Positions 23,580 through 45,063 are shown, counted from the first letter of the stretch. The stretch is DNA of 64,000 bases from Methylophilus sp. (GCA_030696695.1 JAUYRP010000031.1:1-64000), one strand, 5' to 3'. Numbers and translations: made by a program. The notes: a model not told the origin generated them from the sequence alone.

Positions 23580-24557
23580 TTAAGGTGCGCGCTCAATGAG
23601 TTGTTGATAAGCATTGAATACCTCATCAGTCGTTGGTACTTCATGCTGATTGCCAAGATTGATTGCTGGAGCAAAAGCTCCTGCCAAGACGCCCGTGAGT
23701 GCAGGGTCGGTATCGGTGTAGATGGCAATCGTAGGTATGCTGAGCGCAACCGCCAAATGTGACAATCCGGTATCCACACCAATGGCTACACGTGCTTGAG
23801 CAATGATGGTTGCCAACTGACCAATATTGAGTTTGGGCAATACAATGGCATGGGATAATTGTGACTGAATCTGCTCTGCACGCTGCTTTTCCGCTTGGCT
23901 AGCCCAGGGTAATACTAATGCAGTCGCTTCCGCTTCTAGTTGTTTGCCAAGGGTAATCCAGCACTCCGTTGGCCACAATTTGCTGTCGCGGCTAGTGCCA
24001 TGCAAGCCAATCACAAACGATTTAGGCAGAGGCATGCTCACCGGGAATTGAGTCGTATGCGCTTGAATGCCATAGTCTGGGTGATGGGTAGGCACTGTAT
24101 AGCCTAATGCTTGTGCAACTAGGGTACGGTTGCGTGTCACGGCATGTTGTTGGTAGCTAATTGCGTAAGTGTGCTGATAGGCGCGACTTGCCAATGGCTC
24201 CCGAATGGAATGCTGATCATAACCATGCTTGGCTCCATGTGCCATACGTGAAATGAGGGCGCTTTTGATTAAGCCTTGGGTATCAATCACCGCATCGTAA
24301 TGGGTATCCAACGATTGTTTAAATGCTCTAATTTCTTGCCAAGTATTGCAACGCAATAGTTGTTTACGCCAGCGTCTCACCGCAACTTTTTTTACGTTGT
24401 GTATGCTTGGATGTAATGCAGGTATATCTGCAAAGCTTTCTTCGACTATCCAGTCAATCTTCGCATCGGGATAGTGTTGCAATAGGTCATTGACCACAGG
24501 TAAGTTGTGAATAACATCGCCGAGGGATGAGGTTTTCACCAGCAAAATACGTTTCAT
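23580..24557 (-). CDS. waaC: LPS heptosyltransferase I (WaaC)
   Basis: MKRILLVKTSSLGDVIHNLPVVNDLLQHYPDAKIDWIVEE; GT9 family; start set at MKRILL. Confidence 0.94.
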   Translation of the reverse strand: MKRILLVKTSSLGDVIHNLPVVNDLLQHYPDAKIDWIVEESFADIPALHPSIHNVKKVAVRRWRKQLLRCNTWQEIRAFKQSLDTHYDAVIDTQGLIKSALISRMAHGAKHGYDQHSIREPLASRAYQHTYAISYQQHAVTRNRTLVAQALGYTVPTHHPDYGIQAHTTQFPVSMPLPKSFVIGLHGTSRDSKLWPTECWITLGKQLEAEATALVLPWASQAEKQRAEQIQSQLSHAIVLPKLNIGQLATIIAQARVAIGVDTGLSHLAVALSIPTIAIYTDTDPALTGVLAGAFAPAINLGNQHEVPTTDEVFNAYQQLIERAP

Positions 24558-24749
24558 GGCGATATTTTCGCATACAATTCTCTCAGTACCATCAAAATCC
24601 ATTTTTTGTCTGCTTGCTACGTCACAGGCTAATAGATCGCTTGATGTAGCCCGTGTACGTTCCAGTTTCTACGAGCTGTTCGCCTTGCAGGGCATTGAAA
24701 AACGCTGTATTTTGCAAGGCATGCATCTAAGTTTTATGAGAGTTACGTA

Positions 24750-25892
24750 TTGAAATTTGCATTGATCATTTTTAAGTATTTCCCCTACGGTGGCATGCAG
24801 CGCGATATGTTACGCACTGCCAATGAGCTGTTAAAACGTGGGCATCAAGTAGATATATTCACACTGAGTTGGCAGGGTGAGTCGCCTACAGGTATGCAGG
24901 TGCACGTGTTGCCACAAACAGGTTGGTTTAATTTTCAGCGCTATCAAAAATTTATAGAAGCGACTTTTGCCATGATTAAAGCTGAGCAATTTGACTTTAT
25001 CTTTGGCTACAACCGCATGGCTGGCTTAGATGCACATTTTGCAGCGGACCCTTGTTTTATTGAGCGTGCGCATCAGCAACGCAATTGGTTGTACCGATTA
25101 ACACCACGCTACCGTTGGTTTGCCAAATGTGAGCATGATGTATTTGCTAAAGAACTTAACACTGCCATATTGGCAGTGTCATTGACTGAGAAACCGCACT
25201 TTCAAAAATGGTATGGCACGCAAAGTGAGCGCTTTCATTTTATTCCCCCATTTTTATCGCCAGAGCGTTTTGTGTTGGAAGATAAAGCAGCCACGCGTAG
25301 ACATTTGCGCGATGCTTTTGGCTTTGCACAAAATGATTTCGTCTATTTGCTCACAGGTTCTGGTTTTGCTATGAAAGGTTTGGACCGTGCTATTTTGGCG
25401 ATGGCGGCGTTGCCAAGTGAATTACTGCAACACACTAAGCTGGTAGCCGTGGGGCAAGATAATCCAAAGCAGTTCCAAGCCATGGTCAATCAACTCCGTT
25501 TGCAAAACCATGTGATTATTTCAAAAGGCCGTGCAGATATTCCTTTGTTGATGCAAGGTGCAGATGTGTGCGTGCATCCTGCCTATCGCGAAAATACAGG
25601 ATTGGTGATTTTGGAAGGCATGGCCTGCGGTGCGCCAATGCTGGTGACAGAGAGTTGTGGTTATGCACACCATGTGGCAGAGGCAGAAGCGGGATTGGTC
25701 AATCCGCTGCCATTTCAGCAAACAGCATTTAATCAACAATGGTTGCAGATGCGTAGTGCATCTGAAAGCCAACGCCAAGCGTGGGCAAGCAATGGTTTAA
25801 GCCACACCCGTCATATTATGCTGGCAAATGATGGCAGTGCAGAAGCCAGTATCCTGATTGACTTGGCTAGACGCAAGATGGAGAAAGCATGA
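24750..25892 (+). CDS. waaG: GT4 family glycosyltransferase, WaaG-like
   Basis: FKYFPYGGMQRDMLRTANELLKRGHQVDIFT; EGMACGAPMLVTESCGYAHHV; TTG start; upstream of waaP. Confidence 0.88.
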   Translation: MKFALIIFKYFPYGGMQRDMLRTANELLKRGHQVDIFTLSWQGESPTGMQVHVLPQTGWFNFQRYQKFIEATFAMIKAEQFDFIFGYNRMAGLDAHFAADPCFIERAHQQRNWLYRLTPRYRWFAKCEHDVFAKELNTAILAVSLTEKPHFQKWYGTQSERFHFIPPFLSPERFVLEDKAATRRHLRDAFGFAQNDFVYLLTGSGFAMKGLDRAILAMAALPSELLQHTKLVAVGQDNPKQFQAMVNQLRLQNHVIISKGRADIPLLMQGADVCVHPAYRENTGLVILEGMACGAPMLVTESCGYAHHVAEAEAGLVNPLPFQQTAFNQQWLQMRSASESQRQAWASNGLSHTRHIMLANDGSAEASILIDLARRKMEKA

Positions 25893-26707
25893 GCAAGCTA
25901 TTGCATATCCCAGATGCGATTAAGCAGCAGCTCGCAGGCAAGAATCACTTTCAATCTATCATGCAACTACATGGAAAACCATTCAGGGATGTGGCTGGTC
26001 GTAAAACGATACAAGTACAATTAGGAGGTCAGCCCTACTTTGTTAAACAGCATTTTGGTGTGGGTTGGGGCGAGATATTAAAAAATATATTGAGCTTAAA
26101 AAAGCCGATACTAGGCGCGCTGACAGAGGTGACTGCGATACAACAGCTGGTGTCATTAGGTATCCCAACCACACCATTGGTGGCTTACGGACAGCAAGGC
26201 TGGAATCCAGCCAGTTTGCAATCGTTTGTGATGACAGAAGACTTGGGTGATATTGTCTCGCTAGAGGATTTATGTGCAGATTGGAAAATTACGCCGCCCG
26301 ACGAGACGTTTAAGCAAACGTTGATTATCGCAGTCGCGCAATTGGCGGCAAAATTGCATCAAGCTGGCTTATGTCATCGTGACTTTTATCTTTGTCATTT
26401 CGTCATGAAACAGGCGGAACTCAAGCAAGGTGTGATTCAACTGTATCTCATCGATTTACACCGCATGCTGCAGAACCAAGCAAGCACAGGTCAAGCTGTC
26501 ATGAAAGATATTGCTGGGTTGTATTTTTCAGCGATGGACTGTGGGTTGAACGAGGTGGATATGGCATTGTTTAAAACGCATTACTTACCGCAAAACGAAA
26601 CCTTTTGGCAGCAGGTTTGCTTGCGAGCTCATCAATTGCATGCAAAATTCAATAGTGCAAAATTTCAAAAACGCTTAGCAGCCGAAAAGTCCGCAATACG
26701 TGAGTAA
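25889..26707 (+). CDS. waaP: LPS core heptose(I) kinase WaaP (RfaP)
   Basis: WaaP kinase motifs: CHRDFYLCHFVM catalytic loop, YLIDLHRM; overlaps waaG by 4 nt. Confidence 0.92.
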   Translation: MSKLLHIPDAIKQQLAGKNHFQSIMQLHGKPFRDVAGRKTIQVQLGGQPYFVKQHFGVGWGEILKNILSLKKPILGALTEVTAIQQLVSLGIPTTPLVAYGQQGWNPASLQSFVMTEDLGDIVSLEDLCADWKITPPDETFKQTLIIAVAQLAAKLHQAGLCHRDFYLCHFVMKQAELKQGVIQLYLIDLHRMLQNQASTGQAVMKDIAGLYFSAMDCGLNEVDMALFKTHYLPQNETFWQQVCLRAHQLHAKFNSAKFQKRLAAEKSAIRE

Positions 26708-26711
26708 TCTG

Positions 26712-27563
26712 TTAATCAGTCGGCGCATCCAACTTTTGCATGGCATGCCGTCTCATTTTGTAGCGGTTGTACTGCCATAAATATTGCTCAGGTTTTTGAG
26801 CAATTTGTTTTTCTATTGCTTGATTAAGTAAGGCCGCAGTGGCAATAGAATCCACTTTAGTGAGATGTAAGGCATAGCCTAATCCGTCCGCTAAACGCTC
26901 ACCAAATGCCATCATCACTGTAGCCCCTGTTTTCACTGCCAGTTTGCTCGCCAATGTCATGGTGTATGCTGGCTTGCCAAAAAATGGCGCCCATTCGCCT
27001 TCACCCTCTGCAGGGATCTGGTCAGGTAAAATGCCAATGGCTTCGCCACGTTTAAGTGCATGCATGAGTTTGCGTACCCCTGCAGTATTGGCTTCTGCCA
27101 GTGTAACGCCAGAGCGAGCACGACCAGTATCCATCATATTTTGTAGCCATTTTATTTTGGAAGGCCGATACATGACTGTAACTGGGTGTAGTGAGCCGTA
27201 ATAAATAGAAGTGATTTCAAAGCAACCCATGTGAGGTGTTAGGAAAATCACCCCTTTTTTTGCCTCAAGTGCCGCGTTCACCTGTTCCCACCCATACACT
27301 TGTTTCACTTGCTGTAACAGCACTTCGTGGTTTTGTTGCCAAATAGCTAGCGTTTCGATGAGTGACTTTCCGCTCTCTTCAGCGTTGGCGCGCAACATTG
27401 CTTCTAGATTAGTTTGGGCCAAGTTGCTTTGTAAAAGATTGCGACGCTGAATGGCGGCGCTACTGGATGAAATCCAAAATAAAATGCGTCCCAAACATGC
27501 GCCAAGCCAATGCAGTGTGGGGAGCGATAGACGTGCTAACAGTCGAGAGATTAAAGGCAACAT
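26712..27563 (-). CDS. lysophospholipid/lipid A acyltransferase (LpxL/HtrB family)
   Basis: GVIFLTPHMGCFE, MYRPSK, GILPDQIPAEGEGEWAPFFGKPAYTMTLASKLAVKTGA. Confidence 0.9.
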   Translation of the reverse strand: MLPLISRLLARLSLPTLHWLGACLGRILFWISSSSAAIQRRNLLQSNLAQTNLEAMLRANAEESGKSLIETLAIWQQNHEVLLQQVKQVYGWEQVNAALEAKKGVIFLTPHMGCFEITSIYYGSLHPVTVMYRPSKIKWLQNMMDTGRARSGVTLAEANTAGVRKLMHALKRGEAIGILPDQIPAEGEGEWAPFFGKPAYTMTLASKLAVKTGATVMMAFGERLADGLGYALHLTKVDSIATAALLNQAIEKQIAQKPEQYLWQYNRYKMRRHAMQKLDAPTD

Positions 27564-27661
27564 AGAATTTATATTTTTTATCTGTAAGTCGAATTGTTAG
27601 CGTGCAATTTGATTGTGTGTTTGCAAAGCCTGCTAAAATCAAACCTCAAATTTGTTTCAGG

Positions 27662-28426
27662 ATGATTTTTTTGAATAGCTATATATTACCAGACTACGCA
27701 GACCTGCTTAGGTTACACCAGTTGGACAACTTTAAGCAATTATGGGATCGTCCTGTGGACTGGTTTGAAGCGCCTAATTATCGTCGCGGTGGATGGAGCG
27801 GGGTAGCTAGAATAAACCTCACAATGAATGACAAGGATCATTGGCTTTTTATCAAAAAGCAAGAGAATCATGGCAGATGGGGTTTGACCTCATTTCCAAA
27901 AAAAGAGCCAACATTTAGACGAGAGTTTGATAACTTACAGTATCTAAAAAGCAAGCAGTTTTCCGCGCCTAAGGTAGTGTTTTATGGAGAACAGTTAGTA
28001 GATGGAAAGCTGTGTGCAATACTTATTACAGAAGAGCTAACCGGCTATAGCCCTTTAAATCAGATATCTGAGCAATTCACACAAATGGGTAAATCACAAA
28101 AAAATGAATTGCTAAAAAATGTTGCTTTAGCTTTACGAAACTTTCATCAACTCAATCGGATGCATCGCGCGCTATATCCTAAACATATATTTGTGGCGGA
28201 CTTACATACCACACCAAAAACTGCACTAATCGATTTTGAAAAAACAAGATTCAGTCCATTCTTTTGGTATAACGCGTACTTTGATTTAGCTGCATTCAAT
28301 CGTCATGTGGAGGGCTGGAGTAAGTCACAAAAGATGTTTTTGTTTAAGCAATATTTTAAATTAGGCCGGTTAACATGGCTGACTAAGGTGTTTTACAAAT
28401 GCATTATGTTGAGATCAACGCGATAA
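27662..28426 (+). CDS. InaA/Kdo-type LPS kinase-like protein
   Basis: InaA-like kinase fold: WFEAPNYRRGGWSGVARI, MHRALYPKHIFV loop, TALIDFEKTR. Confidence 0.82.
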   Translation: MIFLNSYILPDYADLLRLHQLDNFKQLWDRPVDWFEAPNYRRGGWSGVARINLTMNDKDHWLFIKKQENHGRWGLTSFPKKEPTFRREFDNLQYLKSKQFSAPKVVFYGEQLVDGKLCAILITEELTGYSPLNQISEQFTQMGKSQKNELLKNVALALRNFHQLNRMHRALYPKHIFVADLHTTPKTALIDFEKTRFSPFFWYNAYFDLAAFNRHVEGWSKSQKMFLFKQYFKLGRLTWLTKVFYKCIMLRSTR

Positions 28427-28483
28427 GTACTAAACAACAAGTTGTTAGATTTGCCTTTTGCGTTTAATGGGGGGGGTGATAAA

Positions 28484-29317
28484 TTGCAAGACAATACAGA
28501 AAAGCAATTGCCAGCATTTAGCATTGCGATTGTGAATTATAAAACCTTGGATTTAACGCAAATTTGCTTACAACTTTTAAAAAGGCATATTGATGCAGGT
28601 TTGAATGCACAGGTTTGGGTTGTTGATAATGACTCTCAAGATGAGAGTACACATTATTTACGTAGCTTGGATTGGATTCATTTAATTGAGCGTAGAGTGA
28701 CTGAAAAAGAGCCAGGGTTTATGGCACACGGCAAAGGGTTGGATTTAATTTTGGCTGAGATTAAAACCGACGCTGTATTCTTGATGCATACCGACACCTT
28801 TATTTATGATGCAACTGTGTTTAGCATGATGCTCAATGCAATGCAGGCAGGGGATAAAGTCGCAGCTATAGGTTGCTTGCATCAGTTAAATCGTGGCTAT
28901 GTGAGAACTGCTTGGCGTACCGTCAATGGATTTTTCAAGTATCATTTTCGACGTTTAAAGCAGTCACTGAGCCTGCCCAGCCGCCCACCAAAACCTTATA
29001 TAGAGCCTTATATTAAAAGCTTTTTTGCCTTGTGGGATGTGCGATTAATGAAAGAGTTAGGATTGCAGTTTTTAATGGAAGACCGCATTCCAAGCTATGC
29101 TATGCAAGATATTCTAAAATCTAAAGGCTACCAGATAAAAGCACTCTCACCGATGCGTTTGTTTCAGTTTCTAGATCATGTAGAAGCTGGAACTGTAGGG
29201 TTAGCAGCTGGCTATGCTGAGGGACATCGACGATTAGCAAGAAAAAAAACAATGCTTGAAAAACTGATGAAACAACTAACTGGAGAGAAGCAAGTTGGAA
29301 ATAGTATTGCCGATTAG
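28484..29317 (+). CDS. GT2-like family glycosyltransferase
   Basis: FSIAIVNYKTLDLTQICLQLL, VWVVDNDSQDES, FLMHTDTF; TTG start chosen because GGGGGTGAT lies at SD distance. Confidence 0.8.
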   Translation: MQDNTEKQLPAFSIAIVNYKTLDLTQICLQLLKRHIDAGLNAQVWVVDNDSQDESTHYLRSLDWIHLIERRVTEKEPGFMAHGKGLDLILAEIKTDAVFLMHTDTFIYDATVFSMMLNAMQAGDKVAAIGCLHQLNRGYVRTAWRTVNGFFKYHFRRLKQSLSLPSRPPKPYIEPYIKSFFALWDVRLMKELGLQFLMEDRIPSYAMQDILKSKGYQIKALSPMRLFQFLDHVEAGTVGLAAGYAEGHRRLARKKTMLEKLMKQLTGEKQVGNSIAD

Positions 29318-30158
29318 GTTGGAAGAAGGATTTATCCTAAATGAGGAAGAAGCGTATCGTTTAGGCCATGAGCGCATGGAAGGATATGCTTTTGCTGACC
29401 CATATCCGCATGCAGTTCTGGATAATTTTTTACCACTAGAAATGGCAGATACGTTGCTGGCGCATTTTCCAGCTGAACAAAAAGCAAATGATAAGGTGTA
29501 TGAAAAAGGATACGGCGGAACACACAAGCGACAAATATCTCCTTACGATTGTGATGCATACATGCGCGCTGCATTTGCCTTTTTTAACTCCGCGCAGTTT
29601 GTACGGTTTATTGAAGGCATTACCAATATTGAAGGCTTGATTCCAGACCCTTATTTTGCCGGGGGTGGTTTGCATGAGACGAGTAGTGGTGGCTTATTAG
29701 GTATCCATGCAGACTTTCAAGTGAATGAAGGGCTCCAACTGTTTAGACGTGTCAACGTGTTGATTTATTTAAATAAAGATTGGCAAGAGGCGTATGGCGG
29801 CAAGTTGGAACTTTGGGATAAGGCCATGACGCAAAAGGTGGTTGAAGTTGCGCCAGTCTTTAATCGATGTGTGATTTTTAATACGGATGCCGATAGTTTT
29901 CACGGTCACCCAGACCCACTGACGACGCCAGCGCACATTACACGTAAATCCATTGCATTGTATTACTACAAAGCGCAGCCCATTCAAAATCAAACAGGGG
30001 AGTCAAGGCACACGCTTTATGTGGCAAGACCGCATGACGATGACAAAACCAAAGCGGATGTGGAAAAACTACGCAAAAAACGCGATAAGCGCGCCAAAAA
30101 ACAGCAGGTAGGTGATTCGTTGTCTCTCTTTAGACGCATCAAAGCTTGGTTTAAGTAA
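29295..30158 (+). CDS. 2OG-Fe(II) oxygenase (prolyl hydroxylase-like)
   Basis: LLGIHADFQVN ... RRVNVLIYLNKDWQEAYGGKLELWD ... FHGHPDPLTTPAHITRKSIALYYY (HxD...H and R motif). Confidence 0.85.
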   Translation: MEIVLPIRLEEGFILNEEEAYRLGHERMEGYAFADPYPHAVLDNFLPLEMADTLLAHFPAEQKANDKVYEKGYGGTHKRQISPYDCDAYMRAAFAFFNSAQFVRFIEGITNIEGLIPDPYFAGGGLHETSSGGLLGIHADFQVNEGLQLFRRVNVLIYLNKDWQEAYGGKLELWDKAMTQKVVEVAPVFNRCVIFNTDADSFHGHPDPLTTPAHITRKSIALYYYKAQPIQNQTGESRHTLYVARPHDDDKTKADVEKLRKKRDKRAKKQQVGDSLSLFRRIKAWFK

Positions 30159-30191
30159 ACGCATGTTGATGTCTGGCATAGGGTTTAACTA

Positions 30192-31676
30192 ATGGCATTG
30201 TCTGCTTCTGCACTAGCTTTGCTGGCGCAGCATGGGTTACATGCTGAGGCCATCGCTTTAGCCAATGGTACGCAACTGCAATTGCTGACCGACGTCCGCG
30301 TGGTGCCTAGTAAACGATTGGTTGCTAAGGCTGTATGGCAAGGGCAGAATGTTTTTGCCAAGCTATTTGCGGGTACTCAGGCAAGCCGCTATGCCCAGCG
30401 CGACCAGCAAGGCATTTTGGCGTTACAGGCCGCACACATTGCTACCCCAACCATATTGGCGTTTGACCAAGTGCAGGATTCGGGTGTGCGTGTGATGTTG
30501 ATTGAAGCGATTGAAGATAGTCAGAATGCAGAAGTGTTTTACACGCATGCTTCATCCAAACCGCGTTTGCACTTGCTCAGCCAATTGGTGGGAATCGTAG
30601 CGCAACAGCATCAGGCAGGCATATTACAAACCGATATGTATTTGAAGAATTTTTTGGTGCAATCTTCCGACCAAAATGCGATGAATCATATTTACAGCAT
30701 TGATGGCGATGGCATCCGTAAGGTAGCGGCTTTAAACCAACATCAAGCATTGCAAAACTTGAGTGTGTTGTTGTCCAAAATCGATGTGATTGAATTAGAA
30801 CAGCATTTGCCTACTTGGCTAGCTTTATATACCAAGACACGCGGCTGGTCAGGGTCACCAGACGTCCAACATGTACAGCAAATGATTCATAAACAGCGTG
30901 CGGAGATGGCTAGTCGTTATGCCGATCGTAAGGTATTCCGCCAATGTACAGATGTACAGGTAACGCTAAACTCACAACAGTTTTTTGCACGCAGTACGTC
31001 TTTTTTACACTTACCTATACCCGCTACAGCCAAAGCGCTAGACGCCGTGATGCAGCAATCTGCTCTGCTCAAAGACGGCAATACATGTACGGTAGCTAGT
31101 ACGCCTGTTGCCGGGCAAACCATAGTGATTAAACGGTATAACATTAAAAACCTTGGACATCGTTTCAGCCGTATTTGGCGGCCATCACGCGCGGCCGTGT
31201 CTTGGGCAAATGCGTATCGATTGCAGTTGTTAGCTATACCAACTGCTAAGCCGATTGCATTGCTAGAAACACGCTACGCTGGCTTGCGTGGTAAGGCTTA
31301 TTTTTTAAGCGAGTATTTGGATGCGCCTGATCTTGTCGAGGCGTTTTCCGATTGTTCAGACAGTGTAAGCCGTGCAGCACTAGTCAAAGCGATAGTGCAA
31401 TTATGTTATCGACTATGGCGGCAACAAATCTCCCATGGCGATTTAAAGGCCAGCAATATCAAAGTGCTGGCAGGTGAGCCGGTATTGATTGATTTGGATA
31501 GCATGCAACAGCACCGCTATGCATTTCTCGCCAATCGCGCGCATATCAAAGACTTGCAAAGACTGATGCAAAATTGGAAAGACGACACATCCCTGTATAA
31601 TGCGTTTGTAAAGAGTTTTAAAGTGATCTATGCAGACCACGCACCTTTAAAACAGGCAGGTATTTTAAGCGATTAA
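30192..31676 (+). CDS. tandem two-domain LPS kinase-like protein
   Basis: Two kinase-like domains in 494 aa: LQTDMYLKNFLV/YSIDGDGI and ISHGDLKASNIKV/VLIDLDSM. Confidence 0.75.
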   Translation: MALSASALALLAQHGLHAEAIALANGTQLQLLTDVRVVPSKRLVAKAVWQGQNVFAKLFAGTQASRYAQRDQQGILALQAAHIATPTILAFDQVQDSGVRVMLIEAIEDSQNAEVFYTHASSKPRLHLLSQLVGIVAQQHQAGILQTDMYLKNFLVQSSDQNAMNHIYSIDGDGIRKVAALNQHQALQNLSVLLSKIDVIELEQHLPTWLALYTKTRGWSGSPDVQHVQQMIHKQRAEMASRYADRKVFRQCTDVQVTLNSQQFFARSTSFLHLPIPATAKALDAVMQQSALLKDGNTCTVASTPVAGQTIVIKRYNIKNLGHRFSRIWRPSRAAVSWANAYRLQLLAIPTAKPIALLETRYAGLRGKAYFLSEYLDAPDLVEAFSDCSDSVSRAALVKAIVQLCYRLWRQQISHGDLKASNIKVLAGEPVLIDLDSMQQHRYAFLANRAHIKDLQRLMQNWKDDTSLYNAFVKSFKVIYADHAPLKQAGILSD

Positions 31677-31700
31677 TTAACGTTGAATAGAGTTAACTAG

Positions 31701-33419
31701 ATGATTGTATTAGGTTTATCAGGTGCGCTGGGGCATGATGCGTCAGCAGCAATTTTGGTCGATGGCAAAATCATTGCAGCGGCAGAAGAAGAGCGCTTTA
31801 TCCGTGATAAACACGCAAAAAACAAATTTCCTTACGAAGCAGCAAAGTTTTGTTTAAAGCAAGCGGGTGTTAAGCCAGAAGACGTCGACATTGTGGCATT
31901 TCCATATGCGGAAATCCCACTGAGCACCAATGCGCGCTGGCATTATGCTAAACGCCATTGGTACGCGCCTGATCGTGCATTGGATGCATTGTTTAATGGC
32001 AATCGCCGCTATCGTCGCAATCGAGATAAATCATTACAGTTGATGGCCGACTTAGGTTTGAGCAAAGCTAAGTTTGTGCAGGTAGAACATCATTTAGCAC
32101 ACGCTTCTAGTGCCTATCATCTCAGTGGTTTTAAAGAAAAAACGGCAATAGTGGGAATTGATGGTAAGGGTGAGTATGCCACCACATTTTTTGGCTATGG
32201 CGAAAACGGAAAAATCCATAAAATCAAAGAGTTTTATGATCCAGATTCATTAGGCGGCGTGTATGGCGCGATGACCGAGTACCTAGGTTTTGACATGCTA
32301 GATGGTGAGTTCAAAGTCATGGGGATGGCGCCTTACGGTGACCCGAAAAAATATGATTTGTCAGGGTTAGCCAAGTTTGAAAACGGTGAGTTAATCGTCA
32401 ACACCAAACTGGTGAACGTAGTGGGGTTGCGTCGTTACAAAGAAAACGGCAAAGGCTATTACTTTACGCCAGAGCTCATCAAGATGTTGGGGCCAAAACG
32501 CCAAGGCGATGAGATTGATGACCCGTATATTCACTATGCCGCTTCTATTCAAACCTTGTTAGAAGACCTAGCGTTGGAAATGATTGAGTACTATCTAGGT
32601 GATATTATTCGTGAGACTGGCAAGATTGTCATGGCAGGTGGGGTTGCGCTCAATGTGAAGTTGAATCAACGCATTATCGCCATGCCACATGTCAAGGAGT
32701 TATTCGTACAACCAGCATCTGGTGATAACGGCACTTCATTGGGTGCTGCCAGTTACGCAGCGCACTTGGCTGGTGAAACAATCGAGCCTATGCAGCATGC
32801 TTATTTAGGGCCGTCATTTACTAGCGAAGAATGTATTGCGGCATGTGAAGCTCATCCGAACAAGCCGATTTTTACGAGAGTGGATAATTTCCCACAAAAA
32901 GCGGCTGAACTGTTGGCTGCAGGTAACCCTCTGGCTTGGTTGCAAGGCCGGATGGAGTTTGGCCCCCGTTCATTAGGTTGTCGCAGCATTTTGGGTGATC
33001 CGAGCTTTCCTGGTGTGGCGGATCGTATCAACGCACAAATTAAGTATCGCGAACGCTGGCGCCCGTTCTGTCCAAGTATGTTAGATAAGGTGGCTGTAGA
33101 TATTCTACAAACTGAGCACCCTGCGCCCTATATGACGTTTACCTTTGATGTGGCTGAGCACTGGAAAGCCCGCATCCCAGAGGTCGTGCATGAAGATGGT
33201 ACCGCACGTGCGCAAGTGGTAACGCGTGACACCAATCCTCGTTACTATGAGTTGATTGAACACTTGGAGCAGTTGCGAGGTAACGCCGTAGTGCTCAATA
33301 CATCGCTTAACCGCCGTGGCGAGCCCATGATTTGCAGCCCAACTGATGCGCTGAACATGTTTTATGGTTGCGATCTGGAATATTTGATGTTGGAAGACAT
33401 CTTAGTTACTAAAAAGTAG
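31701..33419 (+). CDS. NodU-family carbamoyltransferase
   Basis: LGLSGALGHDASAAILVDGKIIAAAEEERFIRDKHA; HHLAHASSAYHLSGF; GPRSLGCRSILGDP; RERWRPFCPSM. Confidence 0.95.
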   Translation: MIVLGLSGALGHDASAAILVDGKIIAAAEEERFIRDKHAKNKFPYEAAKFCLKQAGVKPEDVDIVAFPYAEIPLSTNARWHYAKRHWYAPDRALDALFNGNRRYRRNRDKSLQLMADLGLSKAKFVQVEHHLAHASSAYHLSGFKEKTAIVGIDGKGEYATTFFGYGENGKIHKIKEFYDPDSLGGVYGAMTEYLGFDMLDGEFKVMGMAPYGDPKKYDLSGLAKFENGELIVNTKLVNVVGLRRYKENGKGYYFTPELIKMLGPKRQGDEIDDPYIHYAASIQTLLEDLALEMIEYYLGDIIRETGKIVMAGGVALNVKLNQRIIAMPHVKELFVQPASGDNGTSLGAASYAAHLAGETIEPMQHAYLGPSFTSEECIAACEAHPNKPIFTRVDNFPQKAAELLAAGNPLAWLQGRMEFGPRSLGCRSILGDPSFPGVADRINAQIKYRERWRPFCPSMLDKVAVDILQTEHPAPYMTFTFDVAEHWKARIPEVVHEDGTARAQVVTRDTNPRYYELIEHLEQLRGNAVVLNTSLNRRGEPMICSPTDALNMFYGCDLEYLMLEDILVTKK

Positions 33420-36231: not shown

Positions 36232-36265
36232 AGGCTTTGTGTTGTTTAGCACAAAGCCTTTTTTG
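36232..36265 (+). terminator. Rho-independent terminator after eda
   Basis: AGGCTTTGTG-TTGTTTAG-CACAAAGCCTTTTTT. Confidence 0.88.
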
Positions 36266-36277
36266 TTGGGATATGAT

Positions 36278-36967
36278 TTGTTAAATATTCAGGAATATAA
36301 GACCATCGTATTTGATTGTGATGGCGTGATTTTAGATTCAAACATCGTCAAAACAGAGGCATACTTTCGCACGGCAAAACAATTGGGTGTTACAGATGCA
36401 CAAGCACAAGCCTTGGTCGATTACCACGTGAAATTAGGCGGGGTTTCTAGGTACCATAAATTTGACTGGTTTTTACGTGAAGTGTTAAAACAACCTGTGA
36501 CCAAAGACGCTATCCAAACTTGGCTAGATGCCTTTGCCAAAGAGTTAGAGGTGGTATTAATGCAGTGTGACATTGCCGAAGGTTTGGAGGCGCTAAAGCT
36601 AAAAACCCTGAATGCTACATGGATGGTATTGTCTGGCGGGGATCAGCAGGAGATACGAGATTTGTTCCATAAAAGAACATTACCCTCAGGAAAATTGCTT
36701 GCGGATTTATTTGAGGGTGGCTTATTTGGTAGCCCTGATAATAAAGATGAGGTGCTAGTTCGAGAAAAAGAAAGTGGTCACTTACGATTCCCAGCATTAT
36801 TTTTGGGGGATAGCAAGTATGATTATGAAGCGGCCAGTAATGCTGGTTTAGATTTTGTATTTTTAAGTGCTTGGACAGAGGTGTCTGATTGGGAAGCGTT
36901 TACTAAGCAATACCGTATACTAGTTAAAAAAGACTTGCTTGAGATGGTAAATTATAAATATGCTTAA
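36278..36967 (+). CDS. HAD family hydrolase
   Basis: KTIVFDCDGVILDSNIVKTEAYF, LSGGDQQEI, ALFLGDSKYDYEAA; the GTG at 36239 lies inside the terminator hairpin, so a later TTG start is preferred. Confidence 0.85.
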   Translation: MLNIQEYKTIVFDCDGVILDSNIVKTEAYFRTAKQLGVTDAQAQALVDYHVKLGGVSRYHKFDWFLREVLKQPVTKDAIQTWLDAFAKELEVVLMQCDIAEGLEALKLKTLNATWMVLSGGDQQEIRDLFHKRTLPSGKLLADLFEGGLFGSPDNKDEVLVREKESGHLRFPALFLGDSKYDYEAASNAGLDFVFLSAWTEVSDWEAFTKQYRILVKKDLLEMVNYKYA

Positions 36968-37634
36968 ACATATTTTTGCTTCTAGCACCTTGTTAACAGA
37001 TTCACAGTATGAATTAATGTGTACAACTGGTCGTATAATTGAGCAGGATGCGCGTGGTCCCAAAGTGATTATTTTGGAAAATGGAAATTTTTTAAAAATA
37101 TTTAGGGTGCGCCATCGTTTCAGCGGAGCAAGAATATATTCACATGCTAGACGATTTAATAGAAATGCTTTTAGGCTAGAAGCACTCAATATACCTACCG
37201 TTAAAGTGATAAGTATTCATCATTTAGAGGCCTCAGGACATTCTTTAGTGATTTATCAGCCATTGGCAGGTAAGTCAATTCGAGAATTAATTCATACTGA
37301 CCTAGAAAACATAGCAAAAACCGATACCATTCTCGGACATTTTTTAGCTAAATTGCACGATAATGGCGTTCACTTTCACTCGCTACACACTGGTAATATT
37401 CTTTTTTTACCTAATGGTCAATTTGGTTTAATTGATATTTCTGATATGACGATTTACCCATGGCCACTCTTTTGTAATACTCGATTAAGAAGTATTAAAA
37501 GGCTATATAAATATGCCCAAGATTTTGAGCTGTTAGGAAGATATTTCTGGATGAATATGCTAGATGCTTATTTCAAAAAAAGTAATATAAATGCATCGTG
37601 TAAAGAGAAAATTTTATCGTTAAAGCAGACTTAA
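36960..37634 (+). CDS. kinase-like protein (toluene-tolerance/BUD32-like LPS family)
   Basis: LHDNGVHFHSLHTGNILFLPNGQFGLIDISDM; 8-nt overlap with the HAD gene. Confidence 0.7.
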   Translation: MLKHIFASSTLLTDSQYELMCTTGRIIEQDARGPKVIILENGNFLKIFRVRHRFSGARIYSHARRFNRNAFRLEALNIPTVKVISIHHLEASGHSLVIYQPLAGKSIRELIHTDLENIAKTDTILGHFLAKLHDNGVHFHSLHTGNILFLPNGQFGLIDISDMTIYPWPLFCNTRLRSIKRLYKYAQDFELLGRYFWMNMLDAYFKKSNINASCKEKILSLKQT

Positions 37635-39492: not shown

Positions 39493-41028
39493 TTATTTTT
39501 TCTGGTAAATGAGGACGCTTTTTTTGGCTTTTGCATCATTAAATTGATTTATTAGCGTGTATTCGGGTAAGGCGTTTTTAATCAAGTTTTTAGTTACATT
39601 ATTTTTGTTCGATGATTCAATTAAGAGGTAGTGGTAATTGAATATAGTTTTGTCAGCTATCGAAGTATTAAGGTGCTCTAGATGGCCACCAAATGTTCCT
39701 TTAAAGGGCTCGTCGGCATAGTAACGCATTCTTGCTTGATCATAAAACACCGGTTTATTATTATTATTATTAGTTACTTGTATCCAAGCCACGGCATCTT
39801 GCATGTAATTATATCCCTGCTGTTTAGGTAAAATGTTTTTAACACTGCAAGCGAGCATAAACAATATTAACAATCTAACAAGCCACTTTGTTTTTGTATT
39901 CACATGTTGTTTAAACAGTAAATGTGCAAAAAAGAAGCTTGCAAACACCATTAGTATGAATGACAGCGCAAGTACATAGCGACCTGATAACACAAACACT
40001 TTTGTAATGATGAGCGCCATACTTAATAATGCGATATACGTTGTTGCCATCAAAATTTGAGCACTTTTCTGTTCCAGTAGGATGTGTCGATGTTTAATTC
40101 CTAAAACGGCAAGACCCATCGTTATCAGGCCGGTTGTAAAGACGACTTTTATGATGATTACGTAGATAAACGTAAGCATTAATCCTGGTATTGCAAACTC
40201 CTCTAAATATTCGCCTAGGACGGATTGGGACATGATGGCGCTTTTTTCTCTGAATAGCGCGGTAAATTCACTTAAAAGATTTGATGTGAAAATCTCGTTA
40301 AGTCTGCCAAGCATCTTGGTTGAAAATTCTGGGTACGTAAATAACGCACAAACTATTAGTAAAGTAAGAGCTAGTTGAACACTATAGGCTTTAAAAACTA
40401 GTTTAAGCTTGCTTGATAAGCTTTGATGTGGGTTGAAAAGCAATACTAAGGGCAGCAGCGCCAAATACAGTATGGCTTCTATTCTAAAAAGCGAGGCAAA
40501 CATCATAGCTAATTGCCAAAGCAAGGCATCTTTAAGACGTTGTTGTTGATAGAAACGGATAAAAAAGACAATACTTAACAGGTAAAACGCCCAAAAACCT
40601 TCGTCTCGCATAAGCATTTCTAATACACCGCCAATCATGTATGGAGCACTTAACCATATAAGCGCAGCTGCGATGATTTGCTTTTGTTTGCCGCCAGCTA
40701 ACTGAATTATTGTTATAAATGCAAAAGTGGCCATGCCAAAAAAAATGACGTTTAAGATCTGTGCGGAAACGTGCACACCTAACTGCGTAATTTTGTTAAC
40801 TAATGTGATACACAGCGAGTAAAAAGGCCAATTAAACACTTCAAAACCGGCCTTCCAGTCGCCATTACTAAAGAGTTTGGCGGCTTCTAAATACAAGACA
40901 GAATCCGGGTTTATCCAGCCATGTTGGATGTACTGTACTTGCGAGGCAATCAGCATTCCAATCAAAACAATCCATAAATGCAATTGTTTAATTGAGGTAT
41001 TTTCTAAGGATTGCAGGATTTTTTGCAT
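39493..41028 (-). CDS. polytopic glycosyltransferase-like membrane protein (GT39/PMT-like)
   Basis: About 10 TM segments; N-terminal HGWINPDSVLYLEAAKLFSNGDW resembles GT-C transferases; in LPS locus. Confidence 0.65.
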   Translation of the reverse strand: MQKILQSLENTSIKQLHLWIVLIGMLIASQVQYIQHGWINPDSVLYLEAAKLFSNGDWKAGFEVFNWPFYSLCITLVNKITQLGVHVSAQILNVIFFGMATFAFITIIQLAGGKQKQIIAAALIWLSAPYMIGGVLEMLMRDEGFWAFYLLSIVFFIRFYQQQRLKDALLWQLAMMFASLFRIEAILYLALLPLVLLFNPHQSLSSKLKLVFKAYSVQLALTLLIVCALFTYPEFSTKMLGRLNEIFTSNLLSEFTALFREKSAIMSQSVLGEYLEEFAIPGLMLTFIYVIIIKVVFTTGLITMGLAVLGIKHRHILLEQKSAQILMATTYIALLSMALIITKVFVLSGRYVLALSFILMVFASFFFAHLLFKQHVNTKTKWLVRLLILFMLACSVKNILPKQQGYNYMQDAVAWIQVTNNNNNKPVFYDQARMRYYADEPFKGTFGGHLEHLNTSIADKTIFNYHYLLIESSNKNNVTKNLIKNALPEYTLINQFNDAKAKKSVLIYQKK

Positions 41029-41033
41029 ATCGG

Positions 41034-42038
41034 TTAGTTAAGATTTTGGATAATACTTCTAGGTAATATTTGTTTTAAACAGTTTAAGTGCCCTAACGGA
41101 CACTCCCGTTTGAAACATGGACTACATTCTAGCTTTAAATACTCTATCACCGCATTGGGGTGCATCGGCGGAGTATGGTAGGGGTCGGATGAGCCAAAAA
41201 TGGCAATCAACTTCTTATTAAGTGCTGCCGCCACGTGCATCAACCCAGAATCATTGCTAACCACAGTATGACAAAGCGCCATTAAATCGATGGCTTCTCC
41301 AAGTTTGGTTTTTCCGCCCAAGTTCACACATTGGTTTTGTGTAAGTTGATTAATCTGATTGGTCACCGGGATGTCTTTATCAGAACCAAACAGCCAAACT
41401 TGCCAGCCTTTTGCAATGGCTGCGTTAGCTACCTCTGCGTAATACTCAGCTGGCCATCGTTTGGCTTCGCCATATTCTGCACCAGGACATAAGCCTAAGA
41501 TAGGTGATTCCAATGCTGCAATGTTAAGTTTTGTAAGCACATTGAGCGCTTGCTGTTGATTGGTAACCAAGCTGGGAAGAGCCAATGGGTCTGGCAACGG
41601 GGTATTGTTTTCAAGCCCCAAACTGACAAATCGCTGCACTGTCATTTTGAGTTTAGATTTGTCTAGTGGGCGAATGTCATTAATTAAGCCATAACGCATT
41701 TCGCCTAAAAAGCTGGTACGTTTGGTAATGCCTGCTGCCCATGGTAGAAGCGCAGACTTAAATGAGTTGGTGAGAATAATGGCTTGGGTATAGCCTTTGT
41801 GTTTGAGTGATTTGCCAAAAGCGATACGTTTCCAAAATGCAAACTCGCCATGTTTGAAGGGCAACGGAATCGCAGCAGACACTTCAGGCATACGCTCCAG
41901 CAGTGGAAGCGTCCAAGCGGGTGCGGCTACGTCAATCGTGCAATCTGGTTGATTGATTTTAAGTGTTTTAAAAAGGCTTTGCGCAAGCACCATATCGCCT
42001 ACCCATGCTGGGCCAAGAATTAAAATCTTTTCTGGCAT
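41034..42038 (-). CDS. waaF: LPS heptosyltransferase II (WaaF)
   Basis: ILILGPAWVGDMVLAQSLFKTL; LCPGAEYGEAKRWPAEYYAEVA; VVSNDSGLMHVAAALNKKLIAIFGSSDPYHTPP. Confidence 0.96.
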   Translation of the reverse strand: MPEKILILGPAWVGDMVLAQSLFKTLKINQPDCTIDVAAPAWTLPLLERMPEVSAAIPLPFKHGEFAFWKRIAFGKSLKHKGYTQAIILTNSFKSALLPWAAGITKRTSFLGEMRYGLINDIRPLDKSKLKMTVQRFVSLGLENNTPLPDPLALPSLVTNQQQALNVLTKLNIAALESPILGLCPGAEYGEAKRWPAEYYAEVANAAIAKGWQVWLFGSDKDIPVTNQINQLTQNQCVNLGGKTKLGEAIDLMALCHTVVSNDSGLMHVAAALNKKLIAIFGSSDPYHTPPMHPNAVIEYLKLECSPCFKRECPLGHLNCLKQILPRSIIQNLN

Positions 42039-42053
42039 GGCGGATATACCAAA

Positions 42054-43511
42054 CTAACTGTTCATTTTTTTGATGAGGTTGCTGGTGCTACGGCCTTCAA
42101 CCAAATCAATCAGCGCAATTTCACCACCCCATGACAATACCTCTTTGCCTCCCACTACTTGGTCTGCAGTATAGTCACTACCCTTGGCAATCACGTGCGG
42201 TTGAATCGCATTAATCAGCTTGAGGGGCGTGTCTTCGTCAAACAAAATGACAGCATCCACAGAGGCGAGTGCAGCGAGTACGCGTGCGCGGTCATTCTCA
42301 TTGACAACAGGGCGAGTGGGACCTTTTAATGCGCTTACTGAGCGATCAGTGTTAAGTCCTAAAATGAGTTTGTCACCACGCTTTTTTGCGGCCTCTAAAT
42401 AGGTCACATGACCAGCATGCAACAAATCAAAACAACCATTGGTAAATACAATTGTTTGATTGGTTTGTTTCCAAACAGCCACTTTTTCTAGCAGCTCTGC
42501 TAAGTCACAGATTTTATGCGCTTGTTCATTAGAGCGTTGGTCTTCTAAGGCATGAATCAAATCCATTTTAGTAATGGGGACCGTGCCCACTTTGCCTACT
42601 ACAACACCCGCCGCAGTATTGGCCAACTCTAAGCTATCAAGAGCGGTTAATCCGTGCATGAGTCCAGCTGCTAGAGTAGCAATTACTGTATCGCCCGCAC
42701 CTGATACATCAAATACTTGTTGAGCCGCCGCTTGCAAATGATGGGTACTTTCATCGAGCAGTGTAATGCCTTCTTCGCTGCGCGTGACGGCTAAGAACTC
42801 AAGTTTGAGTCTAGTTTTAAGTTGTTGGGCTTTCTCAATCAGTGCAGCATCGTTCACATTGGTGTGACAGGCCTCGGCCGTTTCTTTTTTATTAGGCGTG
42901 AGTGCGGTAGCACCTTGATACTTGCTGTAGTCCACGCCTTTAGGATCTACTAAAACAGGTATTTTGGCTTGTTGGCAGGCTTGAATAATTGTTTGGCAAA
43001 TAGTTGGGCTGAGCAGGCCTTTGGCATAGTCAGATAACACGACAATCGCAGGAGCGTTTGCCAACGCTTGCTGAAAGACGTTGAGTATTTGGCTCGTTTC
43101 TTCTGGATTAAATGCACCGCTGTTTTCTTGGTCTAGACGCATCATTTGTTGATGACCGCCTAAAATACGCGTTTTGGCAATGGTTGGTCGATACGACGAT
43201 GTCACCATGCCTTGGGTATCGAGACCATTGGCTTGCATCAGTTGCATTAGCGACTTTCCTTCGGCATCCTCGCCCACACAGCCCAAAATATGCGTTTCAA
43301 TCCCCAGCAAAGCCAGGTTGGCCGCAACATTGGCAGCGCCGCCAGCACGCTCATTTTGTTGCTTAAGTAGCACTACGGGTACAGGTGCTTCTGGTGAAAT
43401 ACGGCTTACTTCACCGATTAAATAACGATCCAACATGACGTCACCAATGACTAAGGCATGTTGTTTGGTTTGGCCAAATTGTTTAACGCGACTCACTAAC
43501 GTATGTTGCAT
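42054..43511 (-). CDS. hldE: bifunctional D-glycero-beta-D-manno-heptose-7-phosphate kinase/heptose-1-phosphate adenylyltransferase
   Basis: Ribokinase-like domain (AGGAANVAANLALLG, DVSGAGDTV) fused to nucleotidyltransferase (FTNGCFDLLHAGHVTYLEAAK). Confidence 0.96.
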   Translation of the reverse strand: MQHTLVSRVKQFGQTKQHALVIGDVMLDRYLIGEVSRISPEAPVPVVLLKQQNERAGGAANVAANLALLGIETHILGCVGEDAEGKSLMQLMQANGLDTQGMVTSSYRPTIAKTRILGGHQQMMRLDQENSGAFNPEETSQILNVFQQALANAPAIVVLSDYAKGLLSPTICQTIIQACQQAKIPVLVDPKGVDYSKYQGATALTPNKKETAEACHTNVNDAALIEKAQQLKTRLKLEFLAVTRSEEGITLLDESTHHLQAAAQQVFDVSGAGDTVIATLAAGLMHGLTALDSLELANTAAGVVVGKVGTVPITKMDLIHALEDQRSNEQAHKICDLAELLEKVAVWKQTNQTIVFTNGCFDLLHAGHVTYLEAAKKRGDKLILGLNTDRSVSALKGPTRPVVNENDRARVLAALASVDAVILFDEDTPLKLINAIQPHVIAKGSDYTADQVVGGKEVLSWGGEIALIDLVEGRSTSNLIKKMNS

Positions 43512-44074
43512 TAGTCAGACTCTAAAATTTCACACAATGAGTGACCGATAAAAATATGCGCCTCTTGAATACGTGCGGTCACACTAGATGGCACCACAAT
43601 GTTGTAATCGCATAACGCTGTCAGCTTGCCACCAGTACCGCCAGTTAAACCAACTGTGACGGCGCCTGCGGCTTTGGCAGCTTCGATAGCATTCACAACA
43701 TTTGCGCTATTGCCAGAGGTGGTCAGGCCAATCACGATGTCTTCCGGTCTGCATAAGGCTTCAATTTGGCGTGAAAAAATATAGTCGTAACCGTAATCAT
43801 TACCCACTGAGGTTAATATAGAAGTATCGGTCGTCAGCGCAATCGCAGGTAAGCCTTTGCGCTCCTTTTTAAACCGGCCGACAATTTCAGCCGCAATATG
43901 CTGGCTATCGGCAGCACTGCCACCATTGCCCATCAGTAAGACTTTGCCACCGCGCTGAATGCATTGTTGTAACTGAATACCGACATCGCTAATTAATGGG
44001 AACAACGGCTCCAGAGCATTGAACATGGCCATGTGTGCAGCATGTTCGCCTTTTAAATAATCAACGTATTTCAT
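43511..44074 (-). CDS. gmhA: sedoheptulose-7-phosphate isomerase
   Basis: LLMGNGGSAADSQHIAAEIVGRF, LTTSGNSANVVNAI. Confidence 0.96.
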   Translation of the reverse strand: MKYVDYLKGEHAAHMAMFNALEPLFPLISDVGIQLQQCIQRGGKVLLMGNGGSAADSQHIAAEIVGRFKKERKGLPAIALTTDTSILTSVGNDYGYDYIFSRQIEALCRPEDIVIGLTTSGNSANVVNAIEAAKAAGAVTVGLTGGTGGKLTALCDYNIVVPSSVTARIQEAHIFIGHSLCEILESD

Positions 44075-45063
44075 CAGCAGTAGGGATCCTCTTGCATCAA
44101 GTAATTTTGCACATAATCTTTTACGCCGTCTTCAAGGCTGGTAAAAGGCGTTTTGTAGCCGGCTTTGCGCAATTTATCCATATTGGCTTGCGTAAAATAT
44201 TGGTATTTACCTTGCAGGTCTAGAGGCATATCAATATAGGTAATGTGCGGTTCACGCGCCATGCTGGTCATCACATTGGTGGCTAAATCTTTAAAGCTAC
44301 GTGCTTCGCCGGTGCCGATATTGTAAATACCATTAGGCGCTGTGCGTTTGCTTAAACCCGCGTTTAAAAAGTAAGCGACTACGTTAGCCGCATCTTTGAC
44401 ATACACAAAGTCGCGTAACTGCATGCCATCTTCTACATCCGCTTTGGTGCCTTTGAATAGTTTCATGGTGCCAGTTTCTTTGAACTGGTTATAGGTATGA
44501 AAAGCCACACTGGCCATACGCTCTTTATGGTATTCGTTAGGGCCGTATACATTAAAAAACTTAAAGCCAGCCCAAGCAGGTGGGGTAGGTTGTTTCTCAG
44601 CCATTTGCCTTAAGACCCACTGATCAAAAAAGTGTTTGGAGTAACCATAACCGTTGAGGGGTCGCAAATGATCAATGCTGGTATCGTTATAACCACGCTC
44701 ACCTGCACCGTAAGTGGCGGCAGAACTTGCATAGAAAAATGGGACATCATGCTCTGCGCACCAAGACCATAAGTCTTGGGAATAATGAATATTGTCAGAG
44801 ACTAGCTTATTGAAATCGCGCTCCGTGGTGGCGCTAATTGCGCCCATGTGGATAATGGCGGTGACATGGTCATTGTCGACCAACCAATCGAGCAATTGGT
44901 CTTTATCTAAGTACTCCACATAATGGCGGTGGACTAAATTTTGCCACTGGGATTCATGCGTAATACGGTCTGTGATGATTAAATCTTCACGACCGAGTTT
45001 AGTGTTGAGGTGCCAGGCAATTATAGAACCTATCATGCCCGCGCCGCCTGTGATAACAATCAT
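44074..45063 (-). CDS. hldD: ADP-L-glycero-D-manno-heptose 6-epimerase
   Basis: ITGGAGMIGSIIAWHLN, YASSAATYGAGERGY, KFFNVYGPNEYHKERMASV. Confidence 0.96.
   Translation of the reverse strand: MIVITGGAGMIGSIIAWHLNTKLGREDLIITDRITHESQWQNLVHRHYVEYLDKDQLLDWLVDNDHVTAIIHMGAISATTERDFNKLVSDNIHYSQDLWSWCAEHDVPFFYASSAATYGAGERGYNDTSIDHLRPLNGYGYSKHFFDQWVLRQMAEKQPTPPAWAGFKFFNVYGPNEYHKERMASVAFHTYNQFKETGTMKLFKGTKADVEDGMQLRDFVYVKDAANVVAYFLNAGLSKRTAPNGIYNIGTGEARSFKDLATNVMTSMAREPHITYIDMPLDLQGKYQYFTQANMDKLRKAGYKTPFTSLEDGVKDYVQNYLMQEDPYC

Follow-up and report, generated by a model that had tools for sequence, protein, structure and literature searches.

The 64,000-nt stretch of DNA analyzed here (the window; GCA_030696695.1 JAUYRP010000031.1:1-64000) belongs to the 2.98-Mb genome of a methanol-using Methylophilaceae bacterium (Methylophilus sp.), and its positions 23580–33419 very probably hold an inner-core lipopolysaccharide (LPS) phosphorylation and carbamoylation locus related to PA5005–PA5012 of Pseudomonas. 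The closest relatives of the host are Methylotenera species and Methylophilaceae metagenome-assembled genomes. The genes are arranged in the order waaC (minus strand), a WaaG-type gene, waaP, an LpxL-type gene (minus strand), an InaA/WapQ-type gene, a GT2-type glycosyltransferase gene, a 2-oxoglutarate (2OG)-Fe(II) oxygenase gene, a double kinase gene, and wapO. The last five genes form a tight plus-strand run, neighbors being −23 to 33 nt apart, and edd and eda come after wapO. A sequence-only reading of the window had placed waaC, waaG, waaP, an InaA-type gene, a double kinase gene, and a carbamoyltransferase gene together; all of them were found to be real, profile-supported genes clustered at these positions. 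The LpxL-type acyltransferase gene and the GT2 gene, which that reading did not mention, are interleaved with them. The arrangement recurs in most of the Methylophilaceae loci compared, far beyond chance.

Judged by its tree, identity, and context, the carbamoyltransferase is an orthologue of WapO. It carries Carbam_trans_N and Carbam_trans_C on a single open reading frame (ORF) of 572 amino acid residues. Its identity is 71–73% to WapO of many Pseudomonas species, orthologues of other Pseudomonas standing in for PA5005 as the reference, and 72–75% to Methylophaga-type proteins. Outside the WapO clade, the best plasmid-borne relatives, including rhizobial and Streptomyces proteins, are about 37% identical (<38%). 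The sequence-only reading had proposed a tree as a check, and in the maximum-likelihood tree the enzyme grouped inside the WapO clade with support of 99/99, away from three NodU sequences and from the tobramycin O-carbamoyltransferase TobZ and a Streptomyces enzyme encoded in a locus for peptide biosynthesis; the WapO-type rows were chosen by similarity to the window protein, and the tree tests the exclusion of NodU and TobZ, not the completeness of the clade. The enzyme aligns with TobZ over its full length, and the HxxxH, Asp, and Lys/Arg motifs, which we take to be the metal and carbamoyl-phosphate sites of TobZ, are invariant in 81 carbamoyltransferase sequences. Within Methylophilaceae, the median identity is 89% for WapO versus 43–57% for the kinases and WaaG, and the trees of WapO, the double kinase, and WaaP each show one Methylophilaceae clade. 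Horizontal transfer of WapO alone is not needed to explain its high identity, because WapO also changes far more slowly than its neighbors within Methylophilaceae.

WapO occurs together with the double kinase and WaaP. Among 61 relatives, in which WapO was called at an identity of at least 70%, the double kinase was present in 31/31 genomes with WapO and 0/30 without it, and WaaP in 30 of the 31, all of which are Methylophilaceae; six Methylophilaceae genomes of this set lacked all three proteins. Across the order (150 genomes), WapO-type enzymes were confined to Methylophilaceae. In 321 genomes sampled across the class, WaaP was found in 20/20 genomes with WapO versus 16/301 without it (Fisher 2e-22), and the full double kinase in 18/20 versus 7/301 (Fisher < 1e-21), both tests ignoring shared ancestry. 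The 19th genome with WapO has a divergent double kinase adjoining WapO, and in the 20th WapO lies 512 bases from the contig end. The profile is nested, since WapO implies WaaP and nearly implies the double kinase, a pattern consistent with carbamoylation coming late, on a core that is already phosphorylated.

WaaP and the double kinase have intact active sites. Window WaaP keeps K53, H163-R164-D165, H170, and D189-L-H-R, which are conserved across the family, and thereby matches all the residues required in P. aeruginosa WaaP (K51, HRD, H168, D188, and R191; PMC6147952). In the double kinase, K57/D148/N153/D171 of lobe 1 and K314/D417/N422/D434 of lobe 2 are all present, and the Lys, catalytic Asp, Asn, and DFG-type Asp are invariant in both lobes of 38 sequences. 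Its AlphaFold2 model (predicted local distance difference test, pLDDT, 94) consists of two kinase folds. The gene occupies the position of PA5006 in Pseudomonas and lies directly 5′ of wapO in nearly all Methylophilaceae loci.

In Pseudomonas, waaP, wapP (PA5008), wapQ (PA5007), PA5006, and wapO lie in this order, and the same genes accompany a phosphorylated, carbamoylated heptose core (nomenclature and core, PMC8005017). With P. aeruginosa PA5005–PA5012 (waaF-waaC-wapG-waaP-wapP-wapQ-PA5006-wapO), the window shares waaC, the WaaG type, waaP, the WapQ type, the double kinase, and WapO. The order WapQ, PA5006, WapO is kept with the last two genes adjacent, and the GT2 and 2OG genes are inserted after the WapQ type. 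The likeness to a Pseudomonas waaFCGP-kinase-carbamoyltransferase arrangement, as claimed in the sequence-only reading, is borne out at the gene level (WapO, WaaG, WaaP, and PA5006 types match) but not in the order of genes: the waaFCGP order is lost, waaF is distant, waaC is divergent, WapP is absent, the LpxL-type gene and the GT2 and 2OG genes are interleaved, and edd/eda stand downstream instead of wapH. No wapP-like ORF was found in the locus, and the sole match to PA5008 in the host's own genome was WaaP itself, at a weak 20.6 bits. The locus is thus predicted to work like the Pseudomonas core phosphorylation and carbamoylation locus, yet it is not the same locus, given its different gene order, its lack of WapP, and its interleaved genes. 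Methylophaga-type WapO loci (L065 and L064) resemble the window in having waaF beside a homologue of its 511-residue membrane-like protein, and their WapQ-type gene lies directly upstream of WapO; L064 also has a GT2 homologue with 50% identity. Unlike in the window, the double kinase gene, waaP, and waaG come after WapO in these loci and are encoded on the other strand, and no 2OG gene was seen there.

From these gene assignments we infer the following steps, their substrates, and their order. HldD, GmhA, and HldE would supply ADP-heptose, WaaC would add the first heptose (HepI), and WaaF would add the second (HepII). The WaaG-type enzyme would put the first outer-core sugar on HepII, and WaaP would phosphorylate HepI. 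The double kinase may provide one or more further core phosphates, perhaps replacing the role of the missing WapP. WapO would O-carbamoylate a core heptose, probably HepII, from carbamoyl phosphate and ATP via a carbamoyl-adenylate as in TobZ. The GT2 and 2OG enzymes would add and hydroxylate or otherwise oxidize a lineage-specific substituent; hydroxylation of the GT2-added residue is a guess. By analogy with Pseudomonas, a carbamoylated heptose core is highly probable, and this half of the earlier prediction of a heavily phosphorylated, carbamoylated heptose core is well supported. The words "heavily phosphorylated" hold only partly, because WapP is absent and the InaA/WapQ-type protein lacks the catalytic Asp, which leaves WaaP and the double kinase to carry the phosphorylation. 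Several points weigh against an inner-core phosphorylation and carbamoylation locus. The co-occurrence partly reflects shared ancestry, the phosphate pattern may differ from that of Pseudomonas with WapP missing and the HRD Asp lost from the WapQ type, and the acceptor of the carbamoyltransferase cannot be read from the sequence. The role of WapO in Pseudomonas is itself termed putative (PMC8005017, PMC10569645), and no LPS structure from Methylophilaceae was found in the literature searched.

The InaA/WapQ-type protein and the small kinase-like protein downstream of eda may be pseudokinases or scaffolds, so that the core would carry fewer phosphates than gene counts imply. We give this a little less than an even chance, and it is compatible with the inner-core locus described above. 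The HRD Asp is Ala in the window InaA/WapQ-type protein and is replaced by Ala, Cys, or Ser in 50/50 InaA/WapQ sequences, including Pseudomonas WapQ, with Cys in E. coli InaA. The equivalent change in P. aeruginosa WaaP, D163A, fails to support growth (PMC6147952). The InaA/WapQ-type gene is missing from several Methylophilaceae loci that retain the double kinase and WapO. In the small kinase-like protein, the HRD Asp is Ser, Ala, or Gly in 40/40 relatives, and the Lys, Asn, and DFG-type Asp are kept; three of the five kinase-like sites in the locus are canonical. On the other hand, some kinases work without the HRD Asp, and the InaA/WapQ family shows no variation in the ATP-site Lys, the DFG-type Asp, or the His that stands in place of the Asn, which suggests nucleotide and metal binding. 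The model of the window protein (pLDDT 93) has a kinase fold, and its best PDB match is the WaaP structure 6dfl.

The window and seven further Methylophilaceae loci carry the GT2 and 2OG genes as a pair, in every case flanked by the WapQ-type gene and the double kinase gene. The same slot is occupied elsewhere by a PMT_2 protein (L034, L041, and L061, checked with Pfam), an EptA/sulfatase-fold protein (L035, L054, and L056), a methyltransferase (L036), or a GT9 protein (L040 and L055), or has no gene; the contents of further loci were assigned solely from size, sequence reading, and position. The slot is thus a decoration site of variable content that adjoins the conserved pair of kinase and carbamoyltransferase genes. 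The 2OG chemistry that the earlier reading saw interleaved in the locus is present between the kinases, but as part of a variable two-gene cassette and not of the shared core. The 2OG enzyme conserves H138xD140, H203, and R217, with the iron ligands kept, and has weak matches to prolyl hydroxylase structures in PDB. KdoO and LpxO were considered as identities for it and rejected, as it matched neither Pfam family (presumably PF11004 and PF05118). It is rather unlikely that the cassette serves a surface molecule other than LPS and shares the operon only by position, as might be supposed from its presence in only eight Methylophilaceae loci, the window included, and from the lack of a characterized close relative for either protein. 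Both genes point the same way as the LPS-kinase-type genes on either side, the junctions being short gaps or overlaps, and the other occupants of the slot include envelope-glycan modifiers and glycosyltransferases.

It is improbable that the carbamoyltransferase acts on a different glycan, such as O-antigen or exopolysaccharide, and stands beside the kinases incidentally. Surface-polysaccharide enzymes of about 37% identity exist, related carbamoyltransferases adjoin glycosyltransferases elsewhere (e.g., Caballeronia L126), and the sequence does not disclose the acceptor. However, the WapO-type enzymes form one clade, 0/20 genomes with WapO lack WaaP, and the double kinase is the immediate upstream neighbor in nearly all Methylophilaceae loci. 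We regard as quite improbable a further proposal, in which the Bud32-like double kinase and WapO, built on Kae1-like and YrdC-type domains, form a pair resembling Bud32 and Kae1 of KEOPS, the kinase being mainly an ATPase or regulatory partner for carbamoyl transfer and not only a heptose kinase. It is based on the adjacency of the two genes, their near-strict co-occurrence, and the best PDB matches of the double kinase, which are PRPK/Bud32 proteins (human PRPK, the Bud32 homologue). Unlike the KEOPS kinase, the window kinase is two-lobed and has no tRNA context, the double kinase occurs without WapO in 7/321 genomes, and the Methylophaga kinase adjoins waaP, not wapO; moreover, a likeness to Bud32 is general among WaaP-like kinases. 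If true, the pair would represent a second role, in the cell envelope, for the Bud32-Kae1 partnership. A carbamoyltransferase of the antibiotic or Nod-factor type, with no relation to LPS, has a negligible probability, since the sole NCBIfam match, NodU NF041651, reached 153 bits, far under its cut-off of 1000, the tree rules it out with NodU and TobZ in separate clades with other acceptors and at about 37% identity or less, in spite of their shared domain architecture and aligned His/Asp motifs, and no biosynthetic-cluster or nod genes were found among the annotated window genes.

The features of the locus and its surroundings are listed in the table.

Table. Features of the LPS core region, in window coordinates
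Feature	Position	Strand	Support or remark
waaC, heptosyltransferase I	23580..24602	-	TIGR02193 382 bits, cut-off 185; divergent from waaG
waaG/wapG-type core glycosyltransferase	24750..25892	+	PDB matches
waaP, heptose I kinase	25889..26707	+	NF011703 292 bits, cut-off 170; PDB 6dfl; 4-nt overlap with waaG
LpxL/HtrB-type acyltransferase	26712..27563	-	PF03279; NF006487 323 bits, cut-off 281
InaA/WapQ-type kinase-fold protein	27602..28426	+	PF06293 121 bits; position of Pseudomonas wapQ
GT2-fold glycosyltransferase, first cassette gene	28442..29317	+	PF00535
2OG-Fe(II) oxygenase, prolyl-4-hydroxylase-like	29295..30158	+	PF13640 (2OG-FeII_Oxy_3); 23-nt overlap with GT2
Double kinase, PA5006 type	30192..31676	+	two PF06293 stretches on one ORF
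wapO-type O-carbamoyltransferase (Kae1-like + YrdC-like)	31701..33419	+	PF02543, PF16861; TobZ 304 bits
Small kinase-like protein	36960..37634	+	median 35% homologue in 17 Pseudomonas loci, downstream of wapO
511-aa membrane-like protein	39493..41028	-	adjoins waaF
waaF, heptosyltransferase II	41034..42038	-	TIGR02195 449 bits, cut-off 135
hldE, gmhA, hldD (ADP-heptose supply)	42054..45063	-	HldE and HldD over cut-off; GmhA 204 bits, cut-off 209

The true starts are probably Met16, near 24557, for waaC and Met22, near 27665, for the InaA/WapQ-type gene. WaaG was best identified through PDB, with 344 bits to P. aeruginosa WaaG (8b5s) and 274 bits to E. coli WaaG (2iv7), and its median identity to the Pseudomonas loci is 43%. 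Compared with the window, Methylophilaceae WaaG proteins fall mainly into two identity groups, 42–44% and 69–78%, with few intermediate (L032, L033, L036, L037, L038, L044, and L045 versus L031, L034, L035, L039, L040, L046, and L048); the groups perhaps correspond to two different first outer-core sugars. Acyl carrier protein charged with an acyl group (acyl-ACP) stabilizes P. aeruginosa WaaP (PMC6147952), and given this, the LpxL-type gene adjoining waaP may be a meaningful neighbor. waaF lies 7.6 kb past wapO, outside 23580–33419, where it forms with hldE, gmhA, and hldD a minus-strand cluster for HepII addition and ADP-heptose supply (41034–45063). The 511-residue protein beside it had no Pfam or NCBIfam match and is a candidate unannotated core or O-chain gene. 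A HAD-family phosphatase gene (36239–36967), which follows eda and precedes the gene of the small kinase-like protein, is conserved in the same position in Methylophilaceae. RNA elements, promoters, and terminators sought at the locus gave no signal above expectation.

Two further observations concern loci of other genomes. In P. syringae-group loci (L088, L098–L101, L105, and L107), the PA5006-type kinase gene and wapO are about 6.5 kb apart, and effector-gene segments and an insertion sequence are annotated in that gap in DC3000 (PMC8005017). A contig filed under the archaeon Candidatus Nitrosopumilus salaria BD31 (L039) bears an LPS locus of Methylophilaceae together with dnaK and edd, which is probably a contamination of that assembly.

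The locus is a real new variant of the known Pseudomonas system, in which one kinase is gone, another has lost its catalytic residue, and a slot for decorating enzymes is swappable. A heptose core bearing phosphate and carbamoyl groups, as documented in Pseudomonas, would thus extend to an ecologically abundant methylotroph family and to scattered other Gammaproteobacteria, with WaaP, the PA5006-type kinase, and WapO as one nested, co-inherited module. Two points become testable, namely the role of the uncharacterized PA5006 and whether WapQ and InaA, which have lost the catalytic Asp in all sequences examined, are kinases. The modular slot offers a natural series of alternative core decorations for comparison.

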